A DNA stretch of 64,000 nt from Tsuneonella mangrovi (GTDB lineage Bacteria > Pseudomonadota > Alphaproteobacteria > Sphingomonadales > Sphingomonadaceae), in the NCBI RefSeq assembly GCF_002269345.1, contig NZ_CP022889.1:1550001-1614000 (forward strand). The letters are read 5' to 3'. Position 1 is the first letter of the stretch. Every line of letters begins with the position of its first letter. The notes beneath the pieces are model-generated. The model worked only from the letters and a program-made list of their open reading frames with translations, had not been told where the DNA came from and searched no databases. The translations under genes were made by a program, and so were the position numbers. Shown here in pieces: positions 479 to 11,957 of the stretch.

Positions 479-516
479 CGCCCCCAAACTCCCCCCGAAG
501 AAAGGTGAACTGCCCC

Positions 517-1674
517 ATGGACAATGCGATTCCCCCTGCCGCCGACGCGGCGACTGCCGATACCCAGGCGGCTGACAGCTTCGATATCGTCGCTCGCCAG
601 GACAAGACCGAAGCCGACGTGAAAGTGCTTCGTTCCGACGTCGATGAAGTAAAGGCCCGGCTCGACAAGGTCGGCCGCGCAGCGATCCGCCCGGCGATTG
701 CCGGCGCGCCCGCCACCCCCGAGGTCAAGGGCTTCGTCGATGGCTACCTGCGCCGCGGCTCGACCGCCGAGGTCAAGTCGCTATCCGGCGCAGCGCCAGG
801 TGACGGCGGCTATGCCGTCCCGCAGGAAATCGATGCAGCGATCGCCCGCGAGCTGACCGCGATCAGCCCGATCCGGGCAATCGCCCAAGTCGTGCAAACC
901 GGCTCGGCGGGCTACCGCAAGCTCGTCTCCACCGGCGGCACCGCATCGGGCTGGGTCAGCGAAACCGCCGGTCGCCCCGAGACCGACACGCCGACATTTG
1001 CCGAGATCGCTCCGCCGAGCGGCGAACTCTACGCCAATCCGGCGGCGAGCCAGGCGATGCTTGACGATGCCGCGTTCGACCTCGAATCTTGGCTCGCGAG
1101 CGAGATCGCGATGGAATTCGCGCGGGCCGAAGGCGCCGCGTTCGTCGGCGGCAACGGCACGGACCAGCCGATGGGCTTCCTGTCCGCCCCGACCTCGCTG
1201 ATCGGCGACGGCGCGCGGCCGTTCGGTACGGTGCAATATCTCGGCTCGGGCGACGCGGCGACCCTCGGCACCGAGCCCGAGACCCGGCTGATCGACCTGA
1301 TCCATGCGCTGGGTTCGGGGCACCGCCAGGGTGCGAGCTGGGTAATGAACTCGGCGACGCTCGCCGAAGTTCGCAAGCTCAAGACCGCCGACGGCGCGTT
1401 CATGTGGCAGCCGGGCCTCGTCGAAAGCCAGCCCGACCGCCTGCTCGGCTACCCGGTGGTCGAGGCCGAGAACATGCCCGACATTGCCGGGGGCGCATTC
1501 CCGATCGCGTTCGGCAATTTCCGCGCCGGCTACCTGATCGCGGAACGCAGCGCGACGCAGATCCTGCGCGATCCGTTCACCAACAAGCCGTTCGTGCACT
1601 TCTACGCCACCAAGCGGGTCGGCGGCCAGGTGCTCGACAGCGCGGCGATCAAACTCCTCAAGATCGAGGCCTGA
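517..1674 (+). CDS. HK97-fold phage major capsid protein (GTA gp5-like)
   Basis: 385 aa. An AAGAAAGG ribosome-binding site at 498-505 suits the ATG at 517; an in-frame GTG at 505 lies on top of it and was rejected. The first ~85 residues are charged and helical (a delta/scaffold-like segment with KTEADVKVLRSDVDEVKARLDKV), which the adjacent protease would remove. The remainder carries typical HK97 capsid features: the GDGGYAVPQEI entry, EFARAEGAAFVGGNGTDQPMGFL, and a C-terminal GYLIAERSATQILRDPFTNKPFVHFYATKRVGG region. It forms the icosahedral head shell. It is followed by an 84-base gap containing a hairpin, unlike the overlapping junctions elsewhere in the cluster. Confidence 0.95.
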   Translation: MDNAIPPAADAATADTQAADSFDIVARQDKTEADVKVLRSDVDEVKARLDKVGRAAIRPAIAGAPATPEVKGFVDGYLRRGSTAEVKSLSGAAPGDGGYAVPQEIDAAIARELTAISPIRAIAQVVQTGSAGYRKLVSTGGTASGWVSETAGRPETDTPTFAEIAPPSGELYANPAASQAMLDDAAFDLESWLASEIAMEFARAEGAAFVGGNGTDQPMGFLSAPTSLIGDGARPFGTVQYLGSGDAATLGTEPETRLIDLIHALGSGHRQGASWVMNSATLAEVRKLKTADGAFMWQPGLVESQPDRLLGYPVVEAENMPDIAGGAFPIAFGNFRAGYLIAERSATQILRDPFTNKPFVHFYATKRVGGQVLDSAAIKLLKIEA

Positions 1675-3634: not shown

Positions 3635-3825
3635 GCGACCGCTTCGGCGCAGCAGCGATGACGCTGTGCCGTTTCGCCACCGTCGCCCTCGGCTGGCGAC
3701 CGCACGAATTCTGGGCCGCGACGCCCGCCGAACTGGGTGTCTGTTTCGCCCCGCCCGATGGCTCCGCTGCCCCGCTGGGCAGGGCCGATCTCGAACGCCT
3801 GATGGAGAACAATCCCGATGGATGA
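3631..3825 (+). CDS. Phage tail assembly chaperone, DUF2376 type
   Basis: 64 aa, GTG at 3631 overlapping the previous stop (GTGA). The core FGAAAMTLCRFATVALGWRPHEFW matches the TIGR02216/DUF2376 family of GTA small tail chaperones, with the invariant-looking GWRPxEFW. The C-terminus (LERLMENNPD) overlaps the tape-measure start by eight bases. The two chaperone genes and the tape-measure gene therefore form an unbroken coupled block. The gene is easy to miss because it is short and begins with GTG. Confidence 0.82.
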   Translation: MSDRFGAAAMTLCRFATVALGWRPHEFWAATPAELGVCFAPPDGSAAPLGRADLERLMENNPDG

Positions 3826-4396
3826 AGTCGACCAGTTGCTGGTCGAAGTCCGCGCCAGCACGCAGGGCTTCGCCAGCGACATCACCCAGATGCGCGGCGC
3901 CTTCGATTCGACGCTGACCGACGGGTTTGCCAAGGCGGGCAACGTGCTCGAGACCGGCCTGCTCGGCGCAATCCGCAAGGGCAGCCTGGGTTTCGAGGAT
4001 ATGGGCCGGATCGCATTGCGGGTGGTCGACCAGATCGCTGCCCGGGCGCTCAAGGTCGGGTTCGACAACCTGTTCGGCAGCGTTTCCACGGGCGGCAACG
4101 CCAACATTGGCGGTTTGCTCGGCGGAGCACTCGGCGCGGTCTTTGGCCTGCCGGGACGGGCGACCGGGGGGCCGGTGTCTCCCGGGCGTGGCTACCTCGT
4201 GGGTGAAAACGGTCCGGAGCTGTTCGTCCCCACGACCGCGGGGCACATCAACGCCAATGGCACAAGCGGAGCTGCGCGCGACGTAAAGGTATCGATCAAC
4301 CTGGCTGCCCCGCGGGGAACCACGGCGCCGGTCGCGCTCCAGCGGTCGAGCCGCCAGGTAGCCAGCGCCGTCGGTCGCGCCTTGCGGGAGGCCTGA
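3818..4396 (+). CDS. Short tail tape measure protein (GTA gp11-like)
   Basis: 192 aa, ATG at 3818 overlapping the chaperone. The N-terminus (VDQLLVEVRASTQGFASDI) and the glycine-rich segment NIGGLLGGALGAVFGLPGRA, followed by ATGGPVSPGRGYLVGENGPE, are hallmarks of lambda-type/GTA tape measure C-termini. RcGTA gp11 is also only about 220 residues. Tape-measure length sets tail length, so a particle with a very short tail is predicted. The hydrophobic stretch near residues 90-110 could act at the membrane during delivery. Confidence is high because of position and the GENGPELF motif. Confidence 0.85.
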   Translation: MDEVDQLLVEVRASTQGFASDITQMRGAFDSTLTDGFAKAGNVLETGLLGAIRKGSLGFEDMGRIALRVVDQIAARALKVGFDNLFGSVSTGGNANIGGLLGGALGAVFGLPGRATGGPVSPGRGYLVGENGPELFVPTTAGHINANGTSGAARDVKVSINLAAPRGTTAPVALQRSSRQVASAVGRALREA

Positions 4397-4399
4397 GCC

Positions 4400-6709
4400 A
4401 TGGCGTTCTGGCTCGCCCGCGAACGCAACGGGCAACAGACCGACTGGATCCAGCGGTTCGATCCGCGGTTCTGGACGGTCAACTTCCCGCGCCCGATGAT
4501 GGCCTCGGTCGTCACCACCGCCGCCGATGCGCTGCGCGTGGATTGCGAATTTCAATACCAAGGCGAACTTGCCGGATTGATCTGGGCGAGCGAGGATACG
4601 CTCGACCATCCGTTGACCGCCTATGCGACCGACCGCGACTATTCGCGGACGACTCTGAGCTTTCGTTGGCGGAGCAGCGGGGTCATTCCGCTCGACGAGG
4701 TGAACGGACCGACGCTCACGGTCGAAGGACGCGATGCAGCGGGTACCGCCCGGACCTGGTACGTCCGCCTGTGGAACTATGCCACCGGCACCAACGAGGA
4801 TGCCACGATCGTGCTGCCGTTCTCGCAGCTTGAGAGCGGCTGGTCCCTTCCCGGCGAACCGGTCCATCCCGCCGACATCGACCGGATGTTCATTTCGCTT
4901 GAGCCGCCGGGAAGTTTCGTTGGGAGCGGCCCTCCACCGGCAGTTCGGGTGAACGGCTGGGTCGAACTGAGCGAGATCGCCTGCGACGGCGAACGCGCGA
5001 TGGCCGAAATCGGCGACGTCCTGCTGCCCCCTCACGGAGTAGGCATTGCCACTGCATACGACGATGCCTTCAACCAGACCCCGGCCCGCCTGCTGCGAAC
5101 CGCGCGGGCGCTCGGCTATCGCGGCGAGTTGGTCCACTATGTCGGGATGAGCCACTTCTTCCGGCTCGGCTCCGACGGGCTTGCCTTGGCCGACGGAACG
5201 CTCTGCACTCCGGCCGAACAGTGGCACCAGAGCTTCTTTGCCAGTGCCGCCGCAATGGGATTCGAGCCGATCGTCTCGCTCAGCTTCGAATTGCTCGCCG
5301 ATCATTGCCCTGACGCGTGGCAGCAACGCGCTGCAGGCGGCGAACCGGCCCGCACAGGTTGGGTGCCGCCTTCCGCGCTGCTCTCGCCTGCCAATTCCGC
5401 CGCTGTCGGCTGGTTGCAAGCGGTTGCAACGACTTTCGCAGCGCTTGCGGAGGCCGCCGGATTGCCGGTGCGCTTCCAAATCGGCGAGCCGTGGTGGTGG
5501 GTGATGTCCGACGGAAGGCCGTGCCTTTATGACGATGCCGCCAGCTACGCGTTCGGAGGTACTCCGCCGGTGATTGCCGATTTGCGCGAGACATTGGCAC
5601 CCGACGAGCTCGACCTGCTCGACCAGGCCGGATCGCTGCTTTCAGCAGCAACCGATGCAATCGCACAAGCCGTCCGCACGCAAGTCCCCGGTGCCGAGAT
5701 CCTGCTGCTGGTGTTTACCCCGACAGTGCTCGATCCCGCCATGCCCGAACTCAAGCGCGCCAACTTGCCGACCGATTGGGCCAGCCCCGCTTTCGACCGG
5801 CTGCAGGTCGAGGACTACGACTGGCTGACTTCCGGTGCTGAAGCTCTGCGCCGAAAGGCATATTCCGAAGTCGATGCACGCCTCGGCTACCCGCTCGCGA
5901 GCCAGGACTATCTCGCAGGGTTCGTGCTCGATCCGGCGAATGCCGATGCACTGTGGCCGCTGATCGACGCCGGACTCGACGAAGCATCTGCGCGCGGCGT
6001 CCCGCGGCGCTTCGTGTGGGCTCTGCCGCAGGTTTCGCGCGACGGCTACACCCGCCTCGCGCCTTCGCAGGAGGAACAGGTGCAAGCATTCGATGACGTG
6101 CTCTACCCGCTCGCGCTGGGCCGTGATGCCGGGGTCAGTCCCGAATTCTCTACTTCGGTTGCGGTCACCGCTTCGGGCCACGAGCGGCGCAATTCGTTGT
6201 GGACCGATGCACGGCTGCATTTCGATGTAGGCCCCGGCATTCGCTCGGAAACCGAACTGGGGGTCCTGATCGCGTTCTTCCGCGCCCGGCGCGGCGCGGC
6301 GCGCGGGTTCCGCTTGGCCGACCCGTTCGACTTCAGCTCGAGCGGGATGACGGGAACGCCGAGCGCGACCGACCAGCCGATCGGCACCGGCGACGGACTG
6401 ACCGCCCGCTTCCAGCTAACCAAGAGCTATGGCGACGGAGCCGAGCCGCAGGTTCGCCCGATCACGCGGCCCCGCGCCGAATCGATCGCAGTCAGTATCG
6501 ACGGGGTCGCGAGCTCGGCCTGGTCACTCGATCCGGGCGGATGGATAGTGTTCGCGGCTGCCCCTCCGACCGGGGCCGAAATCCGCGCCGGGTTCCTGTT
6601 CGACGTGCCGGTGCGCTTTGCCGAGGACCTGCTCAACGTAACCGGAGCGACCTTTGCCGCTGGCGATGCGCCGTCGGTCCCGCTGATCGAGATCCGCGAG
6701 GCGTCATGA
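4400..6709 (+). CDS. Enlarged GTA gp12: baseplate protein with N-terminal hydrolase-like region and C-terminal DUF2460
   Basis: 769 aa. Only about residues 562-769 correspond to the DUF2460/TIGR02217 family (LYPLALGRDAGVSPEFSTSV, then FFRARRGAARGFRLADPFDF), which in RcGTA is the whole of gp12 (about 210 aa). The first ~215 residues look beta-rich and carbohydrate-binding-like. Residues ~220-545 look like an alternating beta/alpha barrel, with acidic residues at strand ends: E297 in SLSFELL, E363 in FQIGEPWWWV, and E471/D472/D474 in LQVEDYDWL. In RcGTA the TIM-barrel segment is inside gp15 instead. A glycosidase-like role against surface polysaccharide or peptidoglycan is inferred. The stop overlaps gp13. 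Confidence 0.8.
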   Translation: MAFWLARERNGQQTDWIQRFDPRFWTVNFPRPMMASVVTTAADALRVDCEFQYQGELAGLIWASEDTLDHPLTAYATDRDYSRTTLSFRWRSSGVIPLDEVNGPTLTVEGRDAAGTARTWYVRLWNYATGTNEDATIVLPFSQLESGWSLPGEPVHPADIDRMFISLEPPGSFVGSGPPPAVRVNGWVELSEIACDGERAMAEIGDVLLPPHGVGIATAYDDAFNQTPARLLRTARALGYRGELVHYVGMSHFFRLGSDGLALADGTLCTPAEQWHQSFFASAAAMGFEPIVSLSFELLADHCPDAWQQRAAGGEPARTGWVPPSALLSPANSAAVGWLQAVATTFAALAEAAGLPVRFQIGEPWWWVMSDGRPCLYDDAASYAFGGTPPVIADLRETLAPDELDLLDQAGSLLSAATDAIAQAVRTQVPGAEILLLVFTPTVLDPAMPELKRANLPTDWASPAFDRLQVEDYDWLTSGAEALRRKAYSEVDARLGYPLASQDYLAGFVLDPANADALWPLIDAGLDEASARGVPRRFVWALPQVSRDGYTRLAPSQEEQVQAFDDVLYPLALGRDAGVSPEFSTSVAVTASGHERRNSLWTDARLHFDVGPGIRSETELGVLIAFFRARRGAARGFRLADPFDFSSSGMTGTPSATDQPIGTGDGLTARFQLTKSYGDGAEPQVRPITRPRAESIAVSIDGVASSAWSLDPGGWIVFAAAPPTGAEIRAGFLFDVPVRFAEDLLNVTGATFAAGDAPSVPLIEIREAS

Positions 6710-7521
6710 GCCGGATATTCTTTTCGCAGGAACTTGAAGGCGTGGCGACCTTCTGGCGCATCCATCGGCGCGACGGCGTCACGCTCGGCTTCACCAGCCA
6801 CGATCGCGACCTGACCTTCGGCGGGATCCGTCACCGCGCCGCGCCGGGAATGCTCCCTTCGGCGATCCGGCGCACCGCCGCACTCACCGGAGACAGCGCC
6901 GAAATGCAGGGCGCGCTGGCGCACGATTCGATCTCCGAAGAAGATCTCAAGGCCGGACTTTTCGACGCTGCGCAGGTCGAGGCCGGCGCAGTCGATTGGG
7001 AGACCGGCGAGCACGCAGTACTCTACTCCGGGACGATCGGCAGCGTTTCACAGGAAGCGGGCACGTTCTCGGCCGAGCTCAAATCCGCCAAGACGGCACT
7101 CGAAGTCGATGTCGTCCCGCGCACCAGCCCGACGTGCCGTGCGCCGTTCTGCGGCCCGGGGTGCGGGCTTTCGGCACCGCGCTTTACCCACGAAGCCCAG
7201 GTTATCGGTATCGACACACAGGCCAATCGGGTGCTCTTCGATGACCCCGCTCCATCACTGATGGCGGGCGGCTCGGTCCGCTGGATCGAAGGGCCCCACG
7301 TCGGCCTGGCGATGGACGTACTCGATGCCGACGCGACCGGTCTGCTGCTCGATTCGCGTCTCGATCCGGCCCTCGGCTCCGGCACCCGCACGGTGCTGCG
7401 CGAAGGCTGCGACCATACGCTCGCCACTTGTCACGCCCGGTTTGCCAACGCGGTCAATTTTCGCGGCGAGCCGTTCCTGCCGGGAAACGACCTGATCGCA
7501 CGCTATCCGGTCGGGCGGTGA
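6706..7521 (+). CDS. DUF2163 tail hub protein (GTA gp13-like)
   Basis: 271 aa, ATG overlapping the gp12 stop by four bases. The N-terminal DUF2163 region contains ATFWRIHRRDGVTLGFTSHDRDL. The C-terminal phage_BR0599 region carries a cysteine set, TCRAPFCGPGCGLS and EGCDHTLATCHARFAN, ending in FRGEPFLPGND. Related tail-tip proteins such as lambda gpL bind an Fe-S cluster through conserved cysteines, so metal binding is plausible here. The protein would form the hub connecting gp12 to gp15. Order and overlaps match RcGTA g12-g13-g14. Confidence 0.88.
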   Translation: MSRIFFSQELEGVATFWRIHRRDGVTLGFTSHDRDLTFGGIRHRAAPGMLPSAIRRTAALTGDSAEMQGALAHDSISEEDLKAGLFDAAQVEAGAVDWETGEHAVLYSGTIGSVSQEAGTFSAELKSAKTALEVDVVPRTSPTCRAPFCGPGCGLSAPRFTHEAQVIGIDTQANRVLFDDPAPSLMAGGSVRWIEGPHVGLAMDVLDADATGLLLDSRLDPALGSGTRTVLREGCDHTLATCHARFANAVNFRGEPFLPGNDLIARYPVGR

Positions 7522-7919
7522 GTGCAGCCCAGGTCGCCACCAGCGCCGAAGCGCTGGTGGGCACCCCGTTCCGGCTGCATGGACGCGACCCGGCAACCGG
7601 GCTCGACTGCATCGGAGTAGTCGCGGCCGCGTTGGCGCGAGGTCACCGACCAGTGTCGGCCCCAACTGGCTACAGCCTGCGTAACCGATCGATCGTTAGC
7701 CAATTGGCTTTCGCTGAACGGGCTGGATTGGTCGAGGCGCAGGGGCAAATCGAACCCGGCGACATCGTTCTCGTCCGCCCCGGCCCGGCGCAACACCACT
7801 TGCTGGTCGCCGTCGCCGACGGAAGCTTCGTCCACGCCCATGCGGGATTGCGCCGGGTGGTCAGCACCCCGGCTCCCCTGGCCTGGCCGACCGTTCGCCA
7901 CTGGCGCGTCGCGCCCTGA
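7518..7919 (+). CDS. NlpC/P60-type cell-wall peptidase (GTA gp14-like)
   Basis: 133 aa, GTG at 7518 overlapping the gp13 stop. It is an NlpC/P60 (CHAP-like) cysteine peptidase: catalytic Cys in GLDCIGVV, His in AQHHLLVAV, and the GDIVLVRPGP strand between them. In RcGTA, gp14 is the tail-tip peptidase that opens peptidoglycan during DNA entry. An in-frame upstream ATG inside gp13 would give a longer protein, but the family starts near this GTG, with a helix (AAQVATSAEALVGTPF). Confidence 0.87.
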   Translation: MSAAQVATSAEALVGTPFRLHGRDPATGLDCIGVVAAALARGHRPVSAPTGYSLRNRSIVSQLAFAERAGLVEAQGQIEPGDIVLVRPGPAQHHLLVAVADGSFVHAHAGLRRVVSTPAPLAWPTVRHWRVAP

Positions 7920-7942
7920 AAGCAAAACTAAGGAATCATGCC

Positions 7943-10135
7943 ATGGCCACCTTGCTGCTCACAGCCGTTGGCACGATTGTCGGCGGACCGGTCGGCGGTG
8001 CGATCGGCGCGCTCGCCGGGCGTTCGCTCGACGCAGCGATTGTTGGTGGCGGGCATCGCGAAGGGCCGCGAGTCAAGGACCTGGCGGTTACCACTTCAAG
8101 TTACGGTCAGCCGATCCCGCGCCATTTCGGAACGATGCGAACCGCCGGAACGATCATCTGGTCGACCGAACTCAACGAAACCAGCGAGACAAGCGGCGGC
8201 GGCAAGGGGAAGCCTTCCACCACGACATACACTTATTCGATCTCGTTCGCAGTGGCGCTCGCCAGCCGGCCGATCGATGGCATCGGGCGCATCTGGGCCG
8301 ATGGCAACTTGCTGCGCGGAGCCGCCGGCGATTTAAAAGCCGCAGGATCCCTGCGGGTCTATTCGGGATCGGGCGACCAGCAACCCGACCCATTGATGGT
8401 CTCCGCGCTTGGCCTGCAGTGTCCGGCGTTTCGCGACTGCGCCTACGTCGTGTTTGAAGACCTCTCGCTGGGCGATTTCGGAAATCGCATCCCGGCGCTG
8501 ACATTCGAGGTCTTCGCCGGATCCGGCGCGTCGCTCCTGGCAGAACTGACTGCCCCCGCGAGCGCAAACCTGAACGTCGCGTCCCTGCTCACGCAGGTCG
8601 ATGGATTCAGCGATGAAGGAGGGGATATTTCGACGACCCTCGACACGATCGATGCGCTCGTCCCGCTTTCCCTTACAGTCAATGATCGGCTGCTCACGCT
8701 ATCCACTGCGGACAACTCCGGGCCAGTCCAGGCCGCACTCCCCCAGGCTGCGCTCGGATGGGACCAGACCGATTTCGGTAAACAATCCGGCGAAGCGCGC
8801 GACCGCAATGCCGGCCTTCCCAACCGGATTGACACCGTGCGCTACTACGACATCGCGCGCGATTTCCAGCCGGGCGTGCAGCGGGCGGGCGGACAAGCAA
8901 AGCCGGCACGCTCGCGAACCGTCGATTTTCCCGCGGCGCTCGCCGCCACCGACGCGCGTTCGCTGGCCGACGCAGCCGCTCGCCGAACAAGCTGGAAGCG
9001 CGAGACACTGCGCTGGCGTATCACCGAACTCGACCCGGCGCTGGTGCCCGGCGCGCTGGTGACGGTGCCCGGCGAGACCGACTTGTGGCGGATCGAGAGT
9101 TGGGAATGGCGTGAGCGGGGCATCGACCTTGGCCTGGTCCGCCAGCAACCATTGGCTGGACCGCAACCGGCATCGACCGACCCGGGAGCGCTACCTGCGC
9201 CGGCGGATTCCGAAGCTGCTCCAACGGTGATGCAGGTGTTCGAGACCCCGGCGTGGACCGCGTTGAGCAGCGACCAACCGCTGATGTTTGCCGCAACATC
9301 CGCCACATCGAGCGGCTGGAACGGCGCCGCCCTTTATCTCGATCGAAACGGTAGCCTCATCCCGCTCGGTGCGAGTGGGCGGCGACCCGCTGCAATAGGT
9401 GATTTGGCGACTTCATTGCCGCCATCACAAGCAGTCCGGTTCGAACCCGACGCCTCCCTTAAGGTGACCTTGTGCAGTTCGGACCTGGCGCTGGCCTCGA
9501 GCGATCTCGGCGGGCTCGCATTTGGAGCAAACCGCGTGCTGGTTGGCGGTGAGGTGCTCCAATACGCGATTGCCGAGAATCTGGGAAATGCCGTCTGGCG
9601 CTTGACCGGGCTCCTGCGCGGCCGCGGCGGGACCGAGCTTGCCGCCTTCGCCGGTCATCCCGCGGGTGAAGAATTTGCCTTGCTCGACGGCCGGCTTAAC
9701 CCGCTCGACGGCTCGATTGTACCGTCGGATCCGGCCACCCGGATCGCGGCGATCGGCCTGGGTGATACCGATCCGGTCTACGCTGCGCTGGCCAACCCCG
9801 GGTTGAGCAGGATGCCGCCCAGCCCGGTTCACTCACAAGCCAAGACTGCGACTGACGGAAGCCGCTTGTTTTCGTGGGTCCGCCGCGCCCGCGGCAGCTG
9901 GGAGTGGCCAGACGGCATCGAAATCCCGCTCGTCGAGCAGGCTGAAACATATCAGGTCGGGGTCGGGCCTCTCGATGCCCCGGTTGCAAGCTGGGAGACG
10001 AACGTGCCGAGTCTTGTCCTCGACAGCGCAACGTGGAGCGACTTGCAGGTATCTGCATCGGGGGCAGCTGTGTGGGTCCGACAGATCGGCACGTGGGCCC
10101 GTTCTCCTTCACTCTTGCTCACTCATGTCGACTAG
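7943..10135 (+). CDS. GTA gp15-like tail tip/host-specificity protein lacking the TIM-barrel segment
   Basis: 730 aa, ATG at 7943 with AAGGAA nine bases upstream. The N-terminus is a hydrophobic glycine-rich segment (TAVGTIVGGPVGGAIGALAG) followed by PIPRHFGTMRTAGTIIWS, typical of gp15/rcc01698 proteins. The middle (ARRTSWKRETLRWRITELDPALVPGALVTVPG) fits Phage-tail_3. The C-terminus (GEVLQYAIAENLGNAVWRLTGLLRGRGGTE) fits the rcc01698 C-terminal region. RcGTA gp15 is about 1300 aa and includes a TIM-barrel glycosidase-like domain. Here the central 500 residues are absent, while gp12 is enlarged by a similar amount. Confidence 0.85.
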   Translation: MATLLLTAVGTIVGGPVGGAIGALAGRSLDAAIVGGGHREGPRVKDLAVTTSSYGQPIPRHFGTMRTAGTIIWSTELNETSETSGGGKGKPSTTTYTYSISFAVALASRPIDGIGRIWADGNLLRGAAGDLKAAGSLRVYSGSGDQQPDPLMVSALGLQCPAFRDCAYVVFEDLSLGDFGNRIPALTFEVFAGSGASLLAELTAPASANLNVASLLTQVDGFSDEGGDISTTLDTIDALVPLSLTVNDRLLTLSTADNSGPVQAALPQAALGWDQTDFGKQSGEARDRNAGLPNRIDTVRYYDIARDFQPGVQRAGGQAKPARSRTVDFPAALAATDARSLADAAARRTSWKRETLRWRITELDPALVPGALVTVPGETDLWRIESWEWRERGIDLGLVRQQPLAGPQPASTDPGALPAPADSEAAPTVMQVFETPAWTALSSDQPLMFAATSATSSGWNGAALYLDRNGSLIPLGASGRRPAAIGDLATSLPPSQAVRFEPDASLKVTLCSSDLALASSDLGGLAFGANRVLVGGEVLQYAIAENLGNAVWRLTGLLRGRGGTELAAFAGHPAGEEFALLDGRLNPLDGSIVPSDPATRIAAIGLGDTDPVYAALANPGLSRMPPSPVHSQAKTATDGSRLFSWVRRARGSWEWPDGIEIPLVEQAETYQVGVGPLDAPVASWETNVPSLVLDSATWSDLQVSASGAAVWVRQIGTWARSPSLLLTHVD

Positions 10136-10155
10136 TTACCAAGGAAATCCCCTCC

Positions 10156-10614
10156 ATGCCTGATCCGATCTCCTATACTTCGACCACGCCGCGTTATGCA
10201 CTGCCTCTCCTTTACCCGGGGCAGTCACAGAAGGAAGCATTCGTCAACGCCGCGTTGGCCCTCGCCGACCTGTTGCTCCATCCCGCCATCCTCGGTGAAG
10301 CCACTGATCCTCCAGCATCGCCTGTTGAAGGTGAGACATGGCTGGTCGCTGCAAGCGCGACCGGTGCATGGGTGAACCACGACAACGATCTTGCATCGTT
10401 CCAGAGCGGCTCGTGGGCCTTTGCCAGCCCAAGCGATGGGCTGCAGCTTCTCGACCTCTCCACCGGGCAGATGGTTCGCTACCTGAATGGCTGGCAACGG
10501 CCGACTGCTCCCGCCAGTCCAGCAGGTGGCACGACAGTCGATAGCGAAGCCCGAACTGCGATCGCCGGGATGATCGATGCACTGAAAAACGCAGGGATTT
10601 TTGCCAGTGTATGA
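10156..10614 (+). CDS. DUF2793 tail-fibre-like protein
   Basis: 152 aa from ATG 10156, with AAGGAA upstream; an in-frame start further upstream inside gp15 has no ribosome-binding site. The DUF2793 core is clear: LPLLYPGQSQKEAFVNAALALADLL, then a WLVAASATGAWVNHDN strand and the GWQRP ending. DUF2793 proteins recur next to GTA/phage tail genes in sphingomonads and are thought to be fibre or spike components. Its position 20 bases after gp15 suggests it is the last gene of the structural operon. The exact role is inferred. Confidence 0.82.
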   Translation: MPDPISYTSTTPRYALPLLYPGQSQKEAFVNAALALADLLLHPAILGEATDPPASPVEGETWLVAASATGAWVNHDNDLASFQSGSWAFASPSDGLQLLDLSTGQMVRYLNGWQRPTAPASPAGGTTVDSEARTAIAGMIDALKNAGIFASV

Positions 10615-10808
10615 TGGGAACTAATCGTGCTAGGGCGCGTTCGATTGTCACAAGGAGGGCTATAAATCCTGCATTTTTCGAGGTTGGGCCCCAAACCGAT
10701 GCGTTATTGCAACAGTTTGGCTCAAAGCCCGCTTGCCCTCTCAAGAGGTAGAAGATAGGAATTAGGTTCTTCGGTGGCTCAAAATTCGCTGAAAAGGGGA
10801 ATTGCATA

Positions 10809-11957
10809 ATGCGGAAACTCGTCATCGGTATGGCGATGGCCTCTACGGCCCTTGCTGTGCCCGCGCTTGCACGAGACAATTCGTGGTACGTCGAAGTCGA
10901 CGGCGGCCCGATGCTCGTGGAAGATATCCATTACAACATCGGTGGTGCGCAGGACCAAGCTATCTCGCACCAGAAAGCCGGATACGATTTCGGCGGTATC
11001 GTCGGATACGATTTCGGTTCGATCCGGCTGGAAGCCGAAGGTAGTTATCGCTCTGCCGACATCGACTCGCTGACCGTGGACGTGCTTGGTGTTCCCAACT
11101 CCGCGTACGGTACTCCCGGTCGCATCGGGATGATCCGCAGCACGCCGGGCCTCGCTGCGACGGGTAGCGCCAATGTCCTGAGCTTCATGGTCAACGGGCT
11201 CGCCGATTTCGGGCCGGACGATGGCATCCAGGGCTATGTCGGCGCCGGTGTGGGCGTTGCCCGGACCGAGATTAGCGGTCTCACCGTGCAGACCAGCAGC
11301 CCGGGTTACCTCAACGATTCGGACAGCGGCTGGGCTTGGCAGGTCCTTGCCGGCGTTCGCGCACCGATCTCGGATCACTGGGATGTCGGCCTGAAGTATC
11401 GCTTCTTCAACACCGACGGACTCCACTTGACCGATTCGATCGGGCGGGAGAACTACACCAAGTGGCGGTCGCACTCGCTGCTCGGCACGCTGACGTACAA
11501 CTTCGGTGCGCCGCCGCCGCCCCCACCGCCGCCCCCACCGCCGCCGCCTCCGCCTCCGCCGCCTCCGCCGCCACCGCCGCCGCCGCCGCCGCCGCCGGCT
11601 CCGGTGTGCAACAAGGGCCCCTACATCGTGTTCTTCGAGTGGGATAAGTCGGACATTACGCCGGAAGCAGCAGCGATCCTTGACAATGCCGTGTCGGCTT
11701 ACGCCAACTGCGGCAGCGCTTCGGTGATGCTTGCTGGCTATACCGACCGTTCGGGTACGGTGAAGTACAACCTTGGTCTTGCGGCTCGCCGCAACGACTC
11801 GGTCCGTGCTTACCTCTCGGGCCACGGCATCCCGGACGGCATGATCTCGAGCGAAGCCTTCGGCGAAGCGAACCCGCGGGTTCCGACTGCCGACGGTGTG
11901 CGCGAGCTTCAGAACCGTCGCGTGGAAATCACCTACGGTCCGGGTTCGGGCATGTAA
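10809..11957 (+). CDS. ompA: OmpA-family outer membrane protein with 29-proline linker
   Basis: 382 aa. Signal peptide MRKLVIGMAMASTALAVPALA, cleaved before RDN. Residues ~25-232 form an eight-strand porin-like beta-barrel (repeated FGGIVGYDFGSIRLEAEGSY-type strands, KYRFFNTDG). A linker of 29 consecutive prolines follows, then the OmpA C-terminal peptidoglycan-binding domain: FEWDKSDITPEA, AGYTDRSG, and NRRVEITYG. The barrel sits in the outer membrane and the C-domain anchors it to the wall. An AAAAGGGG ribosome-binding site precedes the ATG. It is a single-gene unit ended by a strong terminator. Confidence 0.93.
   Translation: MRKLVIGMAMASTALAVPALARDNSWYVEVDGGPMLVEDIHYNIGGAQDQAISHQKAGYDFGGIVGYDFGSIRLEAEGSYRSADIDSLTVDVLGVPNSAYGTPGRIGMIRSTPGLAATGSANVLSFMVNGLADFGPDDGIQGYVGAGVGVARTEISGLTVQTSSPGYLNDSDSGWAWQVLAGVRAPISDHWDVGLKYRFFNTDGLHLTDSIGRENYTKWRSHSLLGTLTYNFGAPPPPPPPPPPPPPPPPPPPPPPPPPPPPPAPVCNKGPYIVFFEWDKSDITPEAAAILDNAVSAYANCGSASVMLAGYTDRSGTVKYNLGLAARRNDSVRAYLSGHGIPDGMISSEAFGEANPRVPTADGVRELQNRRVEITYGPGSGM
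11511..11597 (+). repeat. Polyproline-encoding tract (29 codons)
   Basis: Twenty-nine uninterrupted proline codons mixing CCG, CCC, CCA and CCT, so the run is selected at protein level rather than being a simple trinucleotide microsatellite. It separates the OmpA barrel from the periplasmic domain. Such runs stall ribosomes and need EF-P. Confidence 0.95.

Follow-up and report, generated by a model that had tools for sequence, protein, structure and literature searches.

A 64,000-nucleotide stretch of the Tsuneonella mangrovi genome (contig NZ_CP022889.1, positions 1,550,001 to 1,614,000 of the forward strand; referred to here as the window, with coordinates given accordingly) contains the capsid-to-baseplate portion of a gene cluster of the type that encodes RcGTA, the gene transfer agent (GTA) of Rhodobacter capsulatus. 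The analysis presented here concerns two baseplate proteins of this cluster, the distal tail protein (Dit), gp12, and the megatron, gp15. The Dit carries a two-domain arm of the type found in phage N4 and the megatron lacks its peripheral domain; one presumably sugar-active barrel has probably been replaced by another, on a different baseplate protein. The window features of the cluster given below, and the DUF2793 gene that follows it, are on the forward strand.

Domain organisation and predicted fold of gp12

The gp12 gene (4400..6709) is a single open reading frame (ORF) encoding a protein of 769 residues, in which three mutually non-overlapping Pfam domains were identified. The first-pass annotation had assigned the last ∼208 residues to DUF2460 and the preceding ∼560 to a beta-rich domain and a barrel, and both assignments were borne out. 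The DUF2460 Dit domain occupies residues 565-766 (6092..6697; Pfam E 1e-72), scores above the cut-offs of both PF09343 (244.3 versus 30.4 bits) and TIGR02217 (198.6 versus 136.65 bits), and receives the NCBIfam label of the Rcc01695 distal-tail family; it aligns over residues 2-209 of the 210 in RcGTA Rcc01695 (E 1.4e-42). Residues 17-205 (4448..5014) match NCTSP_N (PF23844, E 3.4e-93, 310.6 bits against a cut-off of 27) and are beta-rich in the predicted model, while residues 210-550 (5027..6049) match TIM-barrel_NCTSP (PF23845, E 1.9e-164, 547.2 bits against a cut-off of 27), an assignment with which both the model and the conservation described below agree.

An AlphaFold2 model of gp12, computed from 46 aligned sequences, has a mean predicted local distance difference test score (pLDDT) of 89.7 and a predicted template modelling score of 0.82, with pLDDT falling below 50 at residues 584-599. 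It comprises a beta-rich first domain, an eight-stranded barrel (strands at 215-219, 242-247, 288-295, 358-362, 433-439, 467-471, 502-505 and 536-540) and a beta-rich C-terminal part, so that a TIM barrel of glycosidase type was obtained, in the predicted model, where a different fold would have spoken against the earlier assignment. Foldseek ranked N4 gp64 and gp65 first and the Dit of phage R4C after them, followed by xylanase 10B, a dextranase of glycoside hydrolase (GH) family 66, acid alpha-glucosidase and agarases. Among predicted viral structures the best matches were proteins of Acinetobacter phage IMEAB3, Goslar, Aeromonas phage MJG, Pseudomonas phage uligo and Delftia phage RG-2014.

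Comparison with solved structures placed the barrel with Gp64 of 9lc0 (E 1.4e-43 over residues 255-555; 29-30% identity in the fold search), and the start of the N-terminal domain with the 'non-contractile tail sheath' chain 9lc0_I (E 4e-18, best over residues 9-91), whereas the C-terminal part matched the Dit proteins of RcGTA (6tba) and R4C (8gtc). The PDB titles identify 9lc0 and 9yf5 as phage N4 tails. According to the structural report, 9YF4 and 9YF5 are tied to the N4 sheath, which is six-fold and built of gp64:gp65 heterodimers, gp65 being the receptor-binding protein and the two together forming a non-contractile sheath (PMC12633501). N4 divides the module between two proteins, which ensheath the tail of a podophage and in which no Dit domain was matched, whereas in T. 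mangrovi it forms one protein with the Dit.

Single proteins carrying both NCTSP_N and the NCTSP barrel were also recognised by Pfam in phi92 (gp142, ∼32% identical to gp12 over residues 18-558, and preceded, unlike gp12, by a Calx-beta domain) and in vB_AbaS_D0 (gene 45, a Lokivirus-type tail protein), and rV5 gp034 is related by alignment. Unlike gp12, the phi92, rV5 and Lokivirus-type proteins are products of separate tail genes without DUF2460; in Lokivirus-type phages the NCTSP gene adjoins an annotated, separate Dit gene. In two Lokivirus-type siphophages (L204 6346-9661; L205 6332-9733) the N4-type module was seen in a protein of 903-927 residues encoded directly after the Dit gene. The last ∼190 residues of the Lokivirus-type protein resemble a hub by eye, but this assignment was discarded since hhalign gave it no support (Prob 0.4%, two sequences).

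The short megatron, gp15

The gp15 gene (7943..10135) encodes 730 residues and matches the megatron at both ends, retaining the N-terminal iris/adhesin part and the C-terminal central and fibre-binding parts (PF13550, PF23666; PDB chains 8gtc_M and 6tba_8A), which are common to the RcGTA megatron, Rcc01698. Against the full-length GTA megatron family NF048004 it scores 370.4 bits in two separate stretches, below the curated cut-off of 800. Alignment of 33 megatrons revealed one gap of more than 20 residues in gp15, 548 wide and opposite residues 220-767 of a 1315-residue megatron, which places the junction after residue 194 (8524..8525). Since the RcGTA peripheral domain is given as residues 230-744 in the RcGTA report (PMC7296036), the central segment noted earlier as missing from gp15 corresponds to the peripheral domain. 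On this alignment gp15 is best described as a relative of the megatron without that domain. Neither did gp15 hold an intact barrel, the finding that would have contradicted the first reading: no GTA_TIM (PF13547) match was listed by Pfam for gp12 or gp15, nor was one found in the whole genome at E values up to 0.001. By comparison, RcGTA has a Dit of 210 residues and a megatron of 1304 residues with the peripheral domain, the T. mangrovi Dit being ∼560 residues longer.

Distribution of the two barrels

Among 199 genomes of the Sphingomonadaceae, the NCTSP barrel was found in 125 and DUF2460 in 132, whereas GTA_TIM exceeded its cut-off in none, G267 alone giving a weak, incomplete match. Of 228 genome loci the 80 best were inspected, including loci from Tsuneonella, Erythrobacter, Novosphingobium, Qipengyuania, Citromicrobium and Sphingomonas. 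NCTSP_N, barrel and DUF2460 share one ORF in 79 of these, the gene being split in the remaining locus (L120); the median length is 777 residues for complete gp12 ORFs (n=76) and 731 for gp15 ORFs (n=74). The replacement of the barrel is, then, widespread in the Sphingomonadaceae and not peculiar to the T. mangrovi genome.

In 240 genomes sampled across the class, matches were obtained to NCTSP in 3, to GTA_TIM in 24 and to DUF2460 in 37, with NCTSP and GTA_TIM together in none. The 37 genomes with DUF2460 divide into 22 with GTA_TIM, 3 with NCTSP and 12 with neither, a further 2 having GTA_TIM and no DUF2460. A strict rule of one barrel per baseplate is not upheld by these data. Within the class sample alone the lack of co-occurrence has a Fisher p of 0.059, which is no firm test because the genomes are related. 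None of 80 viral GTA_TIM loci has an NCTSP match in the stretch retrieved, and none of the 318 loci retrieved by NCTSP or gp12/gp15 queries, among them nine phage records, has a GTA_TIM match; these counts are stronger than the class sample, yet not independent.

Several further observations were made among these loci. The gp12 barrel or gene runs over two frames in G280, G282, G330, G377, L120 and L209 (1388-3497), as in decaying clusters or through sequencing error. Many IMG/VR 'viral' contigs of ∼13-15 kb (L123-L202) resemble GTA clusters with the NCTSP module on the Dit, as does a GenBank 'Bacteriophage sp.' record from human faeces (L209, MT840053.1).

Hub-borne modules and phylogeny

In three of 61 genomes searched from another alphaproteobacterial order (G159, G441 and G442) the NCTSP module is located at the N-terminus of the hub, gp13, in fusions of 899, 954 and 1012 residues (L247 8805-11504, L491 7319-10183 and L490 2176-5214, the last two on the reverse complement). 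DUF2460 is encoded there by a separate gene, and the megatron has 772-798 residues without a GTA_TIM match. The module is also hub-borne in seven viral contigs (L330-L335 and L341, with six distinct barrels), of which two, L332 (contig of 40.9 kb) and L341 (35.0 kb), may represent true phages. Throughout this group the module and the kind of backbone are the same as in T. mangrovi and the megatron is short (749-798 residues where complete), but the module is on gp13, and the Dit is a separate, plain gene wherever the contig reaches it.

In a tree of the backbone (Dit, hub and N-terminal part of the megatron; 59 rows; support as SH-aLRT/bootstrap), the Dit-type baseplates lie on one side of a branch (95.4/73), the hub-types group together weakly (55.3/90), and the GTA_TIM types are together with one exception (100/100). 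In the barrel tree (48 rows), the nine hub-borne rows form a clade (100/99), whose position next to Lokivirus-type and N4-like phages is weakly supported (82/39), and 32 Dit-borne rows form another group (89/97). Both trees are compatible with movement of the module in either direction. The module could feasibly have been on the hub first and passed later from hub to Dit within GTA-type baseplates, rather than having been taken from phages twice. An RcGTA-type backbone and a comparably short megatron are common to both carriers, and both fusions are N-terminal, on proteins that contact each other where Dit and hub join in RcGTA. However, the separation of the hub-borne clade, near phages, from the Dit-borne group, and the failure of the backbone tree to join Dit and hub types, speak against it, two acquisitions being possible too, and the hub-first order is regarded as possible but somewhat doubtful.

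Hubs of 536, 851 and 672 residues were encountered in L248 (7228-8838), L255 (9886-12441) and L249 (7961-9979, reverse strand), respectively, those of L248 and L255 having an insertion of ∼260-600 residues between PF09931 and PF09356 with no solid Pfam match, which is perhaps another baseplate module. The megatrons of L248, L250, L254, L255 and L256 (1110-1271 residues) have a peripheral region without a solid Pfam match, neither GTA_TIM nor NCTSP.

Conserved acids and the putative active site

Conservation within the NCTSP barrel was examined in an alignment of 315 rows (299 Dit-borne, 7 hub-borne and 9 others, the last being 6 phage proteins and 3 viral-contig ORFs without a matched DUF2460); L120, L209 and L211 together held six further ORFs that were excluded as split or short. 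Since certain contigs had been retrieved repeatedly, the number of distinct sequences is given also, namely 264 (249 Dit-borne, 6 hub-borne and 9 other). The first-pass annotation had singled out E297, E363, E471, D472 and D474, of which the first three proved invariant in all 315 rows. The remaining two did not, D472 being invariant in the Dit-borne and hub-borne rows but kept in 5 of the 9 others, and D474 being retained by 288 of 299 Dit-borne rows and by all of the hub-borne (7) and other (9) rows. D221, absent from that set, is invariant too. The codons of the four invariant acids are at 5060 (D221), 5288 (E297), 5486 (E363) and 5810 (E471). S251, Q360, G362, P364, W365, W367, Y473 and G507 are likewise invariant, and the aromatic motif GEPWWW is nearly so. 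Glutamates at the positions of E297, E363 and E471 are visible in N4 gp64 in the structure-database alignment.

The model places D221, E297, E363 and E471 at the ends of strands 1, 3, 4 and 6, respectively, D221 being two residues past strand 1. In glycoside hydrolases of clan GH-A the acid/base glutamate follows beta-4 and the nucleophile glutamate follows beta-7. The modelled gp12 departs from this pattern, with E363 after beta-4, E471 at beta-6 and, following strand 7, G507-F508 with no acid.

A proposed function for the Dit-borne arm

The N-terminus of the T. mangrovi Dit bears an arm of N4 tail-sheath type, in which a beta-rich domain is followed by a TIM barrel with the predicted fold of glycoside hydrolases. 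In RcGTA the Dit forms a single hexamer and the megatron is present in three copies, the N-terminus of the Dit being in contact with both hub and megatron (PMC7296036). Since the RcGTA Dit is a hexamer and the megatron a trimer, six barrels instead of three would be expected per particle, and an arm of 560 residues would leave the ring at the interface with hub and megatron. By analogy, the six arms may be situated near the spot where the missing megatron domain would stand. They would bind, and probably cut, the surface polysaccharide of the recipient, as the fold and the conserved acids suggest, so that the tail tip could reach the outer membrane.

A number of points weigh against this interpretation. 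The enzymatic activity is predicted from a modelled fold and from conserved acids, and the copy number and position of the arms are argued from RcGTA. The absence of an acid at the end of beta-7 indicates that the catalytic pair, if there is one, is not the usual GH-A pair. Most of the 315 barrel rows are near kin, and N4-like gp64, being too short for the cut, is not among them. The barrel dN/dS (the ratio of nonsynonymous to synonymous substitution rates) of 0.11-0.17 (T. mangrovi compared with nine loci, the values being identical for two of them) counts in favour of the proposal, but it and the Dit domain values of 0.10-0.21 where defined (8 of 9 loci) are rough because dS is high, and near saturation in several pairs. 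The 80 inspected genome loci were chosen by likeness to the query, which favours the same make-up, and within the Sphingomonadaceae sample the NCTSP barrel is missing from 74 of 199 genomes and DUF2460 is unmatched in 67. Finally, the N4 report describes the module as a sheath and receptor-binding protein and not as an enzyme (PMC12633501).

This last description, together with the beta-7 end without an acid, would also suit a catalytically inert arm, of sheath or receptor-binding type, that stiffens the tail tip and binds a surface glycan without cutting it. The four strand-end acids are, however, invariant in 264 distinct sequences that derive mostly from GTAs but include six from podo-, sipho- and myophages, and together with the nearly invariant GEPWWW motif they exceed what a scaffold would need, although a lectin site could explain them too. 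An inert arm is, accordingly, considered unlikely in comparison with one that also cuts polysaccharide.

Relationship between the NCTSP barrel and GTA_TIM

GTA_TIM, as carried by the trimeric megatrons of RcGTA and phage R4C, is likewise a glycosidase-like TIM barrel on an RcGTA-type baseplate. The two barrels were compared by profile-profile alignment with hhalign, using 27 NCTSP barrels and 26 GTA rows (24 distinct) that included the 240 residues upstream of GTA_TIM. In the positive control, phage NCTSP was aligned with GTA-borne NCTSP at Prob 100% and E 7e-113, whereas NCTSP barrels against the GTA peripheral region gave Prob 0.4% and E 0.17; the probability was 0.4% whether the barrel or the entire peripheral region was compared. 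For phage NCTSP against that region the values were Prob 4.1% and E 0.01.

The GTA peripheral region was modelled separately with AlphaFold2 (30 sequences, pLDDT 79.3). Only seven long barrel strands were seen in this model, and the strands bearing the conserved E260 and E445 are three apart. The catalytic pair of clan GH-A is likewise three strands apart. In the NCTSP barrel, by contrast, the conserved acids are on strands 1, 3, 4 and 6. The fold neighbours differ also: the gp12 barrel leads to N4 gp64 and gp65, and the GTA_TIM model to the R4C megatron and GH113 beta-mannanases among its nearest solved kin, with no N4 chain among the 50 fold matches listed for it. A mannanase-like peripheral domain is what the R4C authors report for their megatron. 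One GH66 dextranase is common to the two 50-row lists, as is expected of glycosidase barrels generally. The absence of profile similarity, the differing fold neighbours and the differing acid-bearing strands lead to the conclusion that the NCTSP barrel, a relative of N4 gp64, and GTA_TIM are members of different families, as judged from profiles and predicted models.

The first-pass annotation had proposed that the TIM-barrel segment moved from gp15 to gp12; its observation that the barrel is on the distal tail protein instead of the megatron stands, but relocation was rejected. Although a shift of the GTA_TIM barrel to gp12 followed by divergence could account for the presence of one barrel and absence of the other in the same clusters, for an F-x-I-G-(S)-E pattern at the glutamate-bearing strand of both and for the dextranase in both lists, it is very improbable in view of the three lines of evidence just given and of the N-terminal domain of the gp12 module, which is common to phage proteins as well. 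One barrel is, rather, replaced by another of a different family, on a different baseplate protein.

More tentatively, with the balance tipping slightly against it, the replacement may reflect a general arrangement in which one site of RcGTA-type baseplates, where Dit, hub and megatron meet, holds either of two unrelated sugar-active barrels on mutually exclusive carriers, namely GTA_TIM on the megatron (three copies) or the N4-type barrel on the hub (three) or the Dit (six), the sixfold form being kept in Sphingomonadaceae GTAs under selection as a surface-polysaccharide enzyme.

The role of the RcGTA megatron barrel and of other protruding baseplate domains is called unknown in a 2026 preprint (PMC13420450). 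A family in which the barrel has been exchanged, and stands on another ring, constitutes a natural experiment, and exchange across families and carriers suggests that a barrel is useful at that place while its family and carrier are free. A 2020 paper records that Sphingomonadales depart from other orders in the lengths of g12 and g15, differences that had to be trimmed away there (PMC7360931); the barrel swap provides a cause for them. It also links GTA baseplates to the phage N4 tail sheath. No description of the NCTSP-Dit fusion, or of the cause of the length difference, was found in open-licence full text, a search that did not extend to the Sphingomonadales 'ancient prophage' paper (Viswanathan 2017). 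The NCTSP Pfam families existed before; what appears to be new is the joint reading of an N4-type module on the Dit, loss of the megatron peripheral domain, different barrel families and a hub-borne third form.

The gene cluster in T. mangrovi

The kinds of genes and the order gp11-gp15 are like those of RcGTA. With terminase, portal and protease genes just upstream in the same 2.70-Mb genome, the head-tail order runs terminase, portal, protease, capsid, connector, tail tube, tape measure, Dit, hub, NlpC/P60 and megatron, and the element is, by gene content, a GTA-type head-tail cluster. The major capsid protein, gp5, is encoded at 505..1674 (PF05065, E 2.6e-87; TIGR01554). The tape measure assignment is weak, the 192-residue gp11 (3818..4396) matching phrog_30701 (E 4.5e-49) but RcGTA_tape only below the cut-off (E 3.2e-7). 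The hub, gp13 (6706..7521; 271 residues; PF09931, E 1.2e-41; PF09356, E 4.6e-23), is without an extra module, and the ORF listed for gp14, an NlpC/P60 cell-wall peptidase (7428..7919; PF00877, E 1.8e-5), overlaps it. No tRNA was found in the locus of the cluster (L001), and a search of 4300-10700 for promoters and terminators yielded no signal beyond chance expectation. The cluster is flanked upstream by malic enzyme/phosphotransacetylase and downstream by OmpA-like ORFs, as assigned by Pfam, the remaining neighbours being judged by eye only. Immediately 3' of gp15 is a DUF2793 gene (10150..10614; PF10983, E 4.2e-22), which may encode a further baseplate or fibre part, and at 10809-11957 there is an OmpA-like protein in which a long uninterrupted proline run precedes the OmpA domain.

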